Part shown: positions 5,230 through 42,944 of the stretch, one piece after another
How the letters are laid out: each line of letters opens with the position of its first letter
Numbering within the stretch: the first letter of the stretch is position 1
DNA from: Synergistetes bacterium HGW-Synergistetes-1
GTDB taxonomy: Bacteria; Synergistota; Synergistia; Synergistales; Synergistaceae
Direction of reading: 5' to 3'
Assembly: GCA_002839185.1 (NCBI GenBank)
Contig: PGXO01000005.1
Location: 124,001-188,000, forward strand
DNA: 64,000 nucleotides
Translations under genes and position numbers: made by a program
Notes under the pieces: model-generated
Told to the model about the DNA's origin: nothing
Seen by the model: only the letters and a program-made list of their open reading frames with translations
The model's database searches: none

Positions 5230-6693
5230 TTACATCATCATTAAGAGCGTTGCCAGGGTCCTGGTCCCGAAACCGGAAGCACCCTTGGCATAATAGCTCC
5301 TCTGTTCCTTTATAAAATCAGCCGCTGCAATATCCAGGTGCACCCATGGAATGTCTTTATCAACAAATGCTTCCAGGAACATCGCCGCTGTGATGGCGCC
5401 GCCGTAGCGTCCGCCGGAGTTTACCAGATCGGCAACAGGAGACTTTATTGCTTTTTTTAGAGTCGGATCGTCTATTGGGAGTTTCCAGAAACGTTCCCCC
5501 GCCATTTTAGCCGCTGTGAGCACATCTTCCCCAAATGGATCATTATTGGTGAAAAGCCCTCCTGTATTCGTCCCCAAAGCTACAGCGCAGGCACCTGTAA
5601 GCGTAGCTATGTCGATAATTTTGTCAGGCTTGAGTTCTGATGCGAAAGAGAGTGCGTCGGCAAGTGTAAGCCTGCCTTCCGCATCGGTATTGTTGACTTC
5701 TATGGTCTTTCCGTTGCGCGCCCTAAGGATATCGTCGGGCCTGTATGCATTACCTCCGGGCATATTTTCCGCTGCAGCTATTATCACTGTAACTTTCCAT
5801 GGCAGCTTAAGCTGAGCCGCTGCTTTTACAGCTCCAAGAACTGCACATGCTCCGCTTTTATCACCCTTCATTGTAGTCATGTGTTCCGCGGGCTTTATGT
5901 CCAGTCCGCCGCTGTCAAAGGTCAGGCCCTTACCTACAAGCGCAACATGACCTCTGCATTCACCTTCCGGTGACCATGTGAGGGTGATAAACCTCGGGGG
6001 ATTTGACGACCCCTTTGCAACAGCATGGTACGCACACATTTTTTCTTTCACTATTCTGTCTTCGTCCCATATTTCGCATTCCAGACCAAGCTCCCGGGCC
6101 AATGATTCAGCTTTTTCTGCAAGAGTCTCAGGGGTGATAACATTACCCGGTTCGTTCGCTATATCCCTTGTATAGCACTGCGCCTCACCAAGTATCCTTC
6201 CTTCCTCAAGCCCTGCGGGGTCTGCATCTGCAACACTGACAACATCAGGAGATATCAGTTTCTCATCCTCTTCCTGCGACAGATACTTGTCAAATCTGTA
6301 GCATCCAAGGACAGCCCCTTCTGCAGCAGATCTTGAATTGATCCTCTCTTCCGCACTTGGCATGGTGATGTGGACGCTTGAGCATCTTTTTGCCGCAGCA
6401 GTTCTCAGGATCATAAAACTTCCTTCCCTGATGTTTTCCTGGAGACTATACTTTTCATTTCCAAGTCCATGTATGACAACGTATTTGACTGAACTGTGCA
6501 TGACGGGGATCTTTATCGTGGAACCTGCCTTTGCCTTGAAGTTCCCGTTAATGACTGCTCTGCGGCAAAACTCCAACATATCTCCGGCAAGAGGTTCCAG
6601 GCACAATAACTCAGATGAGGCTTCCTCAGCAAGTATTCCGATCAACTGGACACTTTCCTGATCGAAGCCTTTTTCACATTTATTAATGTTCAA
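5230..6693 (-). CDS. pepA: Leucyl aminopeptidase (M17, PepA)
   Basis: Cytosolic M17 aminopeptidase releasing N-terminal residues from peptides with two divalent metals. Visible motifs are VGKGLTFDSGGLDIKP with the following MKGDKSGA (metal ligands and catalytic Lys), the M17 signature NNTDAEGRLTLADA, and TLTGACAVALG. I favour the TTG at 6693 because TATGGAGGG lies immediately upstream; this gives 487 residues, normal for the family. In-frame ATGs at 6738 and 6762 have no ribosome-binding site and would add residues between that site and the conserved region. First gene of the pepA-ytcJ-cyuA-recD2 operon, divergent from the FAD oxidoreductase. Confidence 0.92.
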   Translation of the reverse strand: MNINKCEKGFDQESVQLIGILAEEASSELLCLEPLAGDMLEFCRRAVINGNFKAKAGSTIKIPVMHSSVKYVVIHGLGNEKYSLQENIREGSFMILRTAAAKRCSSVHITMPSAEERINSRSAAEGAVLGCYRFDKYLSQEEDEKLISPDVVSVADADPAGLEEGRILGEAQCYTRDIANEPGNVITPETLAEKAESLARELGLECEIWDEDRIVKEKMCAYHAVAKGSSNPPRFITLTWSPEGECRGHVALVGKGLTFDSGGLDIKPAEHMTTMKGDKSGACAVLGAVKAAAQLKLPWKVTVIIAAAENMPGGNAYRPDDILRARNGKTIEVNNTDAEGRLTLADALSFASELKPDKIIDIATLTGACAVALGTNTGGLFTNNDPFGEDVLTAAKMAGERFWKLPIDDPTLKKAIKSPVADLVNSGGRYGGAITAAMFLEAFVDKDIPWVHLDIAAADFIKEQRSYYAKGASGFGTRTLATLLMMM

Positions 6694-40460: not shown

Positions 40461-41894
40461 ATGGATGTATATGGCAGGCTGACAAAGGATATAGAAAAGG
40501 AACTGGCCTCAGTACTAGGCAGCGGGGGCATCATAACAGAAGACAGTGATGTCCTGGAAAACTATTCATGGGATCAGGCCGGCAGGATCTGGGGACACAT
40601 GCCTGATGCTGTCGTCCGACCTGAAAACACTGAACAGGTAAGCTCCGTAATGAAGATCGCATCCCGTTACAGGATACCTGTGACTCCAAGAGGAGCAGGT
40701 AGCGGACTGAATGGTGGTGCCGTCCCTCTTGCAGGAGGAATAGTAATGTCCCTTGAAAGGATGAATTCTATCCTTGAGATCGACCCTCTCAACCGTGTAG
40801 CAGTTGTGGAACCCGGCGTAGTCACGAACGACCTCTGCAGGGCCGCCGCTGAAAAGGGTTTTCTTTATGCAGGATATCCTATGAGCACAGAGACAAGCTT
40901 CATAGGAGGAAACTTCGCAACTAACGCCGGAGGCGGCAAGGTCGTGAGGTACGGCAGTACAAGAAGACACATACTGGGAGCAGAAGCCGTCCTTCCCTCC
41001 GGAGAGGTCATAAATCTCGGAGGCCGCTTCAGAAAAGATACATGGGGATACAACCTCCTTCAGCTGCTCATTGGGAGCGAAGGAACACTGGCAATAGTTT
41101 CAAAACTGATAGTTAATCTTGAACCCAAACCGGGAAAGACAGTAAATCTCCTTGCATGCTACCCGGACATAGAGACTTTGGTAGATAGCGTTTCAAAGGT
41201 AATAAGCTCGGGCAAGAAAATAATTTCCTGTGAATTCATGGACAGGAATCTTGTGAGATACACTACCGAGTATCTTGGGTGCAGACTGCCTGAACAGGAC
41301 AGAAGCGAAGGTTACCTGATAGTGCAGATCGAGGCTGATAACGAAGAACAGCTTGAAGAAAGCTACGAAGTCGTTGGCAAGATCTGCATGTCCTGCGGCG
41401 CTTTCGAAGTTTTTGTAGCAGAGAGCAGGACAGATTCCGCGGCTATGTGGAACGTAAGGCAGAACGGCCTCGAGGGCATGAGAGCCAAAGATCCCTATGC
41501 CTGTAGCTCGGGAGACCTGATGGTGCCGCTCTCGGCTGTTCCTGAGATGTTGAAGAGGATAAGCTCCGCCGGCAGTAAGTGGGGCCTTGAAATGGGCATA
41601 ATAGCTCACATCGGCGACGGGAATATCCATCCTATACCTATAAAGCCTGAAGGGATGTCACCTGAAAGATGGGCCGTATACTCGGAGGAATTTTTTGAGG
41701 AACTTATCAAAGAGGCTATCAGCCTTGGAGGCGTAGGCAGCGGAGAACACGGAGTTGGACATGTAAAACAGCATATAATCATCCAGAGCAAAACTCCCGC
41801 GGAACTTGAGTTATTAAGAGGTATCAAACGTTCATTTGATCCTCTCAACATATTGAACCCGGGAAAGATGTTTTTCCCTCTGGAAAATCAATAA
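40461..41894 (+). CDS. GlcD-like FAD-binding 2-hydroxyacid (lactate/glycolate) dehydrogenase
   Basis: A 477-residue FAD-linked oxidoreductase of the GlcD/LctD type. The PCMH FAD domain contains VTPRGAGSGLNGGAVPLAGGIVMSLERMN and YPMSTETSFIGGNFATNAGGGKVVRYG; the C-terminal domain has IAHIGDGNIHPIPIKPE and GSGEHGVGHVKQ and ends with FDPLNILNPGKMFF. The substrate is probably D-lactate, glycolate or another 2-hydroxyacid. It begins 2 bp after etfA. By analogy with LctBCD the three proteins could oxidise lactate with NAD+ by flavin-based electron confurcation, but the partner ferredoxin and substrate are inferred. Confidence 0.9.
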   Translation: MDVYGRLTKDIEKELASVLGSGGIITEDSDVLENYSWDQAGRIWGHMPDAVVRPENTEQVSSVMKIASRYRIPVTPRGAGSGLNGGAVPLAGGIVMSLERMNSILEIDPLNRVAVVEPGVVTNDLCRAAAEKGFLYAGYPMSTETSFIGGNFATNAGGGKVVRYGSTRRHILGAEAVLPSGEVINLGGRFRKDTWGYNLLQLLIGSEGTLAIVSKLIVNLEPKPGKTVNLLACYPDIETLVDSVSKVISSGKKIISCEFMDRNLVRYTTEYLGCRLPEQDRSEGYLIVQIEADNEEQLEESYEVVGKICMSCGAFEVFVAESRTDSAAMWNVRQNGLEGMRAKDPYACSSGDLMVPLSAVPEMLKRISSAGSKWGLEMGIIAHIGDGNIHPIPIKPEGMSPERWAVYSEEFFEELIKEAISLGGVGSGEHGVGHVKQHIIIQSKTPAELELLRGIKRSFDPLNILNPGKMFFPLENQ

Positions 41895-41910: not shown

Positions 41911-41939
41911 TTGACATTTATCGAACATCAATATAGAAT
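41911..41939 (+). promoter_or_regulatory. Sigma-70-type promoter of the leader peptide-metQ unit
   Basis: A perfect TTGACA (41911-41916) and TAGAAT (41934-41939) are separated by 17 bp, giving a start near 41946. It lies just after the glcD-like stop, so the leader and metQ have their own transcript. Confidence 0.7.
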
Positions 41940-41984
41940 TTCCGCAATTTAATAATTTCCCGACTGAGGAAAGGAGGAAGCGCG

Positions 41985-42068
41985 ATGCAGCATAATACCC
42001 TATTCGGAATAATGTGCATGATGATGTGCGGCATGGGCGGATCCTCTCCTGAAATGGTCGGCGCTTAG
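41985..42068 (+). CDS. 27-residue Met-rich leader peptide upstream of metQ
   Basis: A short reading frame with AAGGAGG seven bases before its ATG, encoding MQHNTLFGIMCMMMCGMGG followed by SSPEMVGA and TAG. Seven of 27 residues are Met, with MCMMMCGM concentrated at codons 10-17, plus two Cys. It sits between the promoter at 41911 and a strong terminator at 42086 that precedes a methionine-binding-protein gene. This is the layout of a leader peptide in ribosome-mediated attenuation, with Met (possibly also Cys) as the sensed residue. Alternatively it is a small functional peptide. The strong ribosome-binding site supports translation, and function is inference. Confidence 0.65.
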   Translation: MQHNTLFGIMCMMMCGMGGSSPEMVGA

Positions 42069-42085
42069 CCAGCTCTTGCCATATC

Positions 42086-42124
42086 AGGGCCGGACCCGCT
42101 AGGGTTCGGCCCTTTTCTTTTTTT
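42086..42124 (+). terminator. Strong terminator between leader ORF and metQ (candidate attenuator)
   Basis: AGGGCCGGACCC (42086-42097) pairs over 12 bp, including one G-U, with GGGTTCGGCCCT (42102-42113) around a GCTA loop and is followed by TTTCTTTTTTT. It lies before metQ and within its transcript, so metQ expression needs readthrough or antitermination. GGTCGGC at 42056-42062, at the end of the leader ORF, can pair with GCC-GACC of the 5' arm (42089-42096, one bulged base), giving a possible antiterminator. Confidence 0.88.
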
Positions 42125-42158
42125 AAATGGAATACAAATCACGAGGAGGAAGAAAGAA

Positions 42159-42944
42159 ATGAAGAAAGCATTGATCATCGCATTAATCGCAGCAATATTG
42201 ATACCAACAGCCTGTTTTGCAGCCGACAAAAAAATCGTACTCGGAGTAACGCCATTTCCGGCCAAAGACATCGCCGCAGTAGCAAAAGAAGTACTGAAAA
42301 AAGATGGATACGAGCTGGTGATCAAAGAATTCACCGACTTTGTCCAGCCAAACTATGCCCTTCAGGACAAAGACCTCGATGCCAATTTTTTCCAGCACGT
42401 CCCCTATCTTGACAACATGAAAAAGGAAAAGAAGCTTGACATAGTCCCCCTCGTGAAGGTGCACCTGCTTCCCATAGGCATATATTCACAGAAGATAAAA
42501 TCACTTAAGGACGTCAAAAAGGGAGCAGTAGTGGCTGTGCCGAACGATCCAACGAACGGGTTCCGCGCATACAAACTTCTTGAGCGTGAGGGACTCCTGA
42601 AAATGGACCCATCGAAAAAGGACCTGACGGCCAGGGATATAATCGATAACCCCAAATCTCTGAAGATAATTGAGCTTGAGGCGCCGCAGCTTCCCCGGAG
42701 CCTTCCCGATACAACGATATCGGTGATCACAATGAATTTTGCCGTTGATGCCGGGCTCAACCCGACAAAAGAGGCCTTGGCGCTTGAGGATAAGAATTCA
42801 CCATATGCAGTGGTCCTGGCGGTAAGGAGCGGAGACAAGGATACTCCGGCTATAAAAGCCCTTTCCAAAGCCCTCAATTCTCCGGAGGTCAAAAAATACA
42901 TAACAGAAGTTCTTTCTCCAAAGGGCGTCGTACCGGCTTTCTAA
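42159..42944 (+). CDS. metQ: MetQ/NlpA-family methionine ABC transporter substrate-binding protein
   Basis: A 261-residue exported binding protein. The signal peptide MKKALIIALIAAILIPTACFA ends in TAC-FAA, which could be a degenerate lipobox or a signal peptidase I site. The mature part has IVLGVTPFPAKDI, YALQDKDLDANFFQHVPYLDNM, AVPNDPTNGFRAYKLLEREGLL and ELEAPQLPRSLPD, all typical of MetQ. The ATG follows CGAGGAGG. No metN or metI lies in the window, so it is an orphan here. The ligand is probably D/L-methionine, although other NlpA-family ligands are possible. Confidence 0.92.
   Translation: MKKALIIALIAAILIPTACFAADKKIVLGVTPFPAKDIAAVAKEVLKKDGYELVIKEFTDFVQPNYALQDKDLDANFFQHVPYLDNMKKEKKLDIVPLVKVHLLPIGIYSQKIKSLKDVKKGAVVAVPNDPTNGFRAYKLLEREGLLKMDPSKKDLTARDIIDNPKSLKIIELEAPQLPRSLPDTTISVITMNFAVDAGLNPTKEALALEDKNSPYAVVLAVRSGDKDTPAIKALSKALNSPEVKKYITEVLSPKGVVPAF

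Follow-up and report, generated by a model that had tools for sequence, protein, structure and literature searches.

The metQ-like gene described here, from a member of the Synergistaceae, very probably has a transcription attenuator of the kind known from trp, his, and ilv, in which the translating ribosome is the sensor and methionine provides the control codons. The gene lies in a stretch of 64,000 nucleotides, which we call the window, from an assembly of 2.17 Mb that is 99.93% complete. A first-pass annotation of this DNA had proposed methionine sensing by leader-peptide attenuation. The class of mechanism is now strongly supported by conservation of the leader ORF and its Met run, by covariation in the helices, by recurrence of the leader at metNIQ, metY, metA, and metX, and by the match between control codons and pathway. 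From these features we infer that the leader ORF is translated, that ribosomes would stall on it, and that readthrough would occur in vivo.

The metQ leader and its competing helices

The leader follows a GlcD-like gene that ends at 41894, and all of its elements are on the forward strand. It has a sigma-70 type promoter, TTGACA-17-TAGAAT (41911–41939), which matches the consensus at 11 of 12 positions and is kept upstream of orthologous leaders. The 5′ UTR ahead of the ORF is only about 40 nt long and thus leaves small space for any additional sensor. The Shine–Dalgarno sequence AGGAGGA (41972–41978) precedes an ORF of 27 codons, MQHNTLFGIMCMMMCGMGGSSPEMVGA (41985–42068), which is seen in the sequence and conserved in relatives. 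Met occupies codons 1, 10, 12, 13, 14, 17, and 24, and Cys occupies codons 11 and 15, so that the putative control codons, codons 10–15 (42012–42029), read Met-Cys-Met-Met-Met-Cys. An intrinsic terminator hairpin of 12 bp (42086–42113), with a T-tract reaching 42124, is followed by the predicted controlled gene (42159–42944), whose product is a methionine ABC transporter substrate-binding protein of the MetQ/NlpA family (Pfam Lipoprotein_9, E 8.5e-86). The consensus promoter, the ideal ribosome-binding site, the seven Met codons with MCMMMCGM at codons 10–17, and the terminator before metQ had all been described correctly in the first-pass annotation. It also called metQ an orphan, which holds for the immediate neighborhood; contig C15 of the same genome, however, carries a metN-metI-metQ2 operon with a Met leader of its own. 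Scans for promoters and terminators gave results near the chance level for the region when taken by themselves; these two calls are convincing because both elements are conserved upstream of orthologous metQ genes.

The end of the ORF can form a second structure with the terminator. Segment 2, the 5′ strand of this antiterminator (GGCGGATCCTCTCCTGAAATGGT, 42036–42058), codes for ..GGSSPEMV and is complementary to segment 3 (42078–42100). The pairs are 42036–42040/42096–42100, 42042–42044/42092–42094, 42047–42052/42084–42089, and 42054–42058/42078–42082. Segment 3 includes the entire 5′ arm of the terminator and the two structures are therefore mutually exclusive. A different pairing, between GGTCGGC (42056–42062) and GCC-GACC of the terminator 5′ arm, had been suggested earlier. 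This helix fits poorly, with GGTCGGC falling in the inner part of the larger antiterminator hairpin, and we rejected it because the longer helix explains the conserved bases and covaries. In folding predictions, nascent RNA from 42036 to 42101 adopted the antiterminator (–32.1 kcal/mol), the terminator formed at –26.2 kcal/mol once segment 2 was masked, and the minimum-energy fold of the full-length leader (–39.0 kcal/mol) included the terminator. Within segment 2, UCCUCU (42042–42047) is complementary to the leader Shine–Dalgarno sequence as well; this possible 1:2 protector pairing for RNA without a ribosome appears, weakly, in one predicted ribosome-free fold. At another leader, L099, the Shine–Dalgarno sequence and segment 2 are complementary over 8 bases (GGAGGAGA / TCTCCTCC).

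To gain a better idea of how general the two helices are, we compared leaders. In 23 of 23 leaders of a first set, the strongest complementarity joined the last part of the ORF to the RNA that extends as far as the loop of the terminator, which gave an antiterminator of the same layout. Among 16 diverse leaders, cognate strands paired with a mean of –27.4 kcal/mol versus –21.2 kcal/mol for swapped strands, and none of 20,000 permutations reached the observed sum. The same comparison was made separately within the metN (20 leaders), metQ (13), metY (24), and ilvN (14) classes, which guards against class effects, and the result was 0/20,000 in each. The antiterminator had a covariation score of 0.239, compared with 0.025–0.107 in slid controls, and this is probably an underestimate because the metN-class alignment is poor. 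For the terminator, 95.6% of cells were paired and 30 cells had changed on both sides, far above slid controls.

The arrangement suggests how the leader would work. RNA polymerase would transcribe the leader with a ribosome translating behind it. The 3′ edge of a bacterial ribosome usually lies about 15 nt after the first base of the P site. When Met-tRNA is short, the ribosome would stall at Met codons 12–14 with its 3′ edge near 42033–42039; a ribosome waiting for Met at codons 13–14 would have this edge at 42033–42036 and one waiting at Cys15 at 42039. By this arithmetic the antiterminator 5′ strand begins just past the stalled ribosome. RNA from about 42036 would then be free, 42036–42058 would pair with 42078–42100 as it emerges, and the antiterminator would consume the terminator 5′ arm, allowing polymerase to continue into metQ. 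With an ample supply of Met, the ribosome would reach the stop codon (42066) and cover approximately 42049–42078. This would block the antiterminator, and the terminator at 42086–42113 would stop transcription. The geometry of stalling and covering is an arithmetic fit that uses a footprint taken from general knowledge.

Related leaders and the match between codons and genes

Orthologues of metQ are present across the genus and the family, and in many genera the same block recurs upstream of them: a promoter, a Shine–Dalgarno sequence, an ORF with MMM, a GGSSPE..GA segment that ends in the stop codon, and a terminator. Leader codons 2–9 drift between orthologues. By contrast, ATG ATG ATG is kept; the exceptions are single substitutions, for example MMI (two genomes) and MIM (one other). 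Loss of the ORF or its Met codons in close relatives, which the original annotation had named as a refuting outcome, was not what we saw. The C-terminal part of the leader peptide is conserved as GSSPE or GSPPG. We attribute this to the encoding RNA, which pairs with the terminator 5′ arm; a functional GGSSPE peptide is unnecessary to account for it.

The same genome (G000) contains Met leaders at four places, before metQ, metN-metI-metQ2, metA, and metY. The sequence ATGATGATGYGC occurs only three times in the 2.17 Mb, at the metA, metQ, and metNIQ leaders. The metNIQ leader, MLINNIGINNMMMCMYTRGSSPDLAGA followed by a terminator, is on the minus strand of contig C15 at about 5497–5670. The leader before the homoserine O-acetyltransferase gene metA (MSMNSYTMMLMCCMMMRGSAFGVYNGSSRP, G000:C4:83740–83862) was a weak match to our covariance model (E 0.35). 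It has 11 Met among 30 codons, start included, and its segment 2 is unrelated in sequence, yet still pairs with its own terminator 5′ arm (–31.0 kcal/mol). The leader before the O-acetylhomoserine sulfhydrylase gene metY (..NIMMMYYTRGSF.., G000:C11:44587–44689) was also found by the model. Its frame is without the early stop of its relatives, and reading would continue through the terminator, which is a point against the methionine attenuator. Leaders for other amino acids occur in this genome too. A classic Val/Leu/Ile leader, SLVLVLVLLISSGSPEVADA, precedes ilvN-ilvC (G000:C2:119168–119262, minus strand), and a leader with six Ile codons precedes a 2-oxoacid:ferredoxin oxidoreductase operon (L113, G000:C12:44426–44534, minus strand). 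L222 is likewise a leader with six Ile codons before such an operon. The oxidoreductase is possibly an amino-acid fermentation gene.

We built the covariance model from 21 leaders and searched 188 Synergistota genomes with it; the leader architecture was matched in 127 of them. About 125 matches were read, their downstream genes were clustered and representatives assigned to families, and richness in control codons was scored in a window of 8 residues. Before met genes (metN, metQ, metY, metX, metA), 59 of 61 leaders were Met-rich, and MMM was missing in only 2 of the 61. Leaders before branched-chain amino acid genes (ilvN, ilvC, leuA, panB) were Val/Leu/Ile-rich in 18 of 19 cases and Met-rich in none of the 19. 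Fisher's exact test for this contrast gave p 1.8e-16, a nominal value since the genomes compared are related and the counts are not independent. Because Met leaders also served as the training set, their share among the matches is inflated; the match between codons and genes is unaffected by this.

Other specificities were also seen. All six leaders before phenylacetate-CoA-ligase-like genes have Phe/Tyr runs (L136, L196, L199, L200, L210, L212), and leaders with Ile runs precede a 2-oxoacid:ferredoxin oxidoreductase and a threonine-dehydratase-like gene. Met and Thr synthesis share aspartate kinase, and the leaders of its genes (L194, L215, L217, L228) contain both Met and Thr codons, as AMTMTS or AMMMMTS. 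One Met-run leader (L221) precedes a gene related to the phenylacetate-CoA-ligase-like genes. An MMC leader (L123) precedes a predicted protein that had no match in Pfam or NCBIfam and that is perhaps a transporter, judging from its hydrophobic sequence. On this comparative evidence, the change of codon run according to the gene is the strongest argument that the run acts as the sensor.

Other possible signals and the SAM riboswitch

The same attenuator could instead sense a general shortage of sulfur amino acids, with Met and the flanking Cys (CMMMC) together as control codons. In 51 of 59 met-gene leaders the residue right after the last MMM is Cys, and the window leader has Cys on both sides of the run. 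This is a point against pure Met sensing and leaves room for Cys, or the nascent peptide, to matter. However, the downstream genes serve to take up or to make Met and not to make Cys, Cys is replaced in the remaining 8 of the 59 leaders (by Arg, Tyr, or Gln) while loss of MMM is rarer, and a stall at Cys15 would free slightly less of segment 2. We regard joint sensing of Met and Cys as unlikely.

A nascent-peptide arrest is less probable still. In TnaC, the nascent peptide stalls the ribosome in response to Trp, and MMMC in the exit tunnel could similarly sense free Met or SAM. The strong conservation of MMMC and of the C-terminal GSSPE/GSPPG would fit such a role, but the C-terminal conservation is already accounted for by RNA pairing. 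Moreover, the sister leaders switch to Val/Leu/Ile or Phe/Tyr according to the gene, which fits tRNA supply and not one arrest motif, and stalling by excess ligand would switch on an uptake gene when Met is high.

It is highly improbable that a riboswitch or T-box at this locus directly senses SAM, Met, or uncharged tRNA-Met. These are the usual means of Met control in bacteria, and 113 of the 188 Synergistota genomes carry a SAM riboswitch; the notion that the phylum lacks them is wrong. Nevertheless, an Rfam scan of the leader locus gave no match to any family, RF00162 and RF00230 included, and the short 5′ UTR offers little room. In the whole genome no SAM riboswitch (RF00162) was above the cut-off, the best score being 21 bits versus 44.4. 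At the gathering score, the window had no T-box (RF00230) match. Three T-box-like matches at E ≤ 0.001 were found in the genome, the best of them weaker than the matches listed above the cut-off. The window does contain, above gathering score and both on the minus strand, a SECIS element (RF01990, 46234–46271) and a glycine riboswitch (RF00504, 49206–49306). Equally hard to credit is the view that metQ simply has a promoter followed by a fortuitous small ORF and a leaky terminator, with no Met regulation: the near-background promoter and terminator scans would allow it, but the conservation, the two exclusive covarying helices, the recurrence of the leader at four met loci of this genome, and the codon–gene match all speak against it.

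In some relatives, Met leaders and SAM riboswitches occur together. At eight loci a SAM riboswitch (RF00162, 70.8–90.5 bits) lies just upstream of the Met leader. These precede metQ (L099, L100, L243, L244), metX (L134), and metY (L105, L107), or belong to L242; L243 and L244 are the same places as those also labeled L156 and L152. A hairpin scan found a terminator candidate after the aptamer and another after the leader at seven of the eight loci, and only the second, after the leader, at L244. This order of elements suggests a series logic in which transcription would require low levels of both SAM and Met-tRNA.

Comparison with known systems and implications

Leader attenuation is known from textbooks for Trp, His, Thr, Phe, Leu, and Ile/Val, and Met genes are known to be controlled by repressors, SAM riboswitches, and T-boxes. 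The window leader shares with the amino-acid leader attenuators of Proteobacteria (trp, his, thr, ilv, phe, leu) and of Corynebacterium ilvBNC (PMC10272879, PMC11857589) a Shine–Dalgarno sequence, a short ORF with runs of cognate codons, exclusive antiterminator and terminator helices, and a predicted geometry of a stalled versus a terminating ribosome. It differs from them in its methionine control codons and its Synergistota host, and in that segment 2 in this phylum has a conserved G-S-S/P-P coding sequence common to different specificities. The SAM-I riboswitch (S box, RF00162) likewise controls metQ, metX, and metY through premature termination, but its aptamer senses SAM and there is no leader peptide. 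The Met-specific T-box of Firmicutes (RF00230) in effect also reads the aminoacylation of tRNA-Met; it binds the tRNA directly, whereas the Met leader would act through the ribosome.

As a further comparison, a uORF motif of Streptococcus fthC has been linked, speculatively, to a Met response via initiator tRNA (PMC11109978); the gene and phylum are different, and the portions of that paper used here do not mention a run of Met codons. Leader ORFs of cys operons in Actinobacteria also carry a run of sulfur amino acid codons, but these are Cys codons (PMC1262725). For those of Mycobacterium no terminator was found, and no conserved RNA regulatory structures were reported upstream of Met operons in Actinobacteria (PMC1262725). 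The Synergistetes species Thermovirga lienii was included in a screen whose main text does not refer to methionine (PMC6429828). In mainly open-access literature we found neither a Met-specific leader attenuator nor a Met leader attenuator from Synergistota.

One point against a methionine attenuator is that initiation, which needs fMet, is itself limited when Met is short, and the leader might lose ribosomes when a stall is needed. This raises the question of how a leader initiated with fMet can report a shortage that lowers initiation. Together, the data make it likely that many amino-acid pathways of Synergistota are served by one leader-attenuator frame, whose conserved segment 2 encodes G-S-S/P-P, and that Met runs in this frame define a Met regulon of metQ, metNIQ, metA/metX, and metY. 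In several genera a SAM riboswitch and a Met leader, each with its own terminator, would act in series, and the gene would be transcribed only if SAM and charged Met-tRNA are low. If so, an entire phylum gains a predicted Met regulon, a single attenuator frame may be re-specified through a change in its codon run, and the tandem loci would be natural two-input gates that read SAM and Met-tRNA in series.
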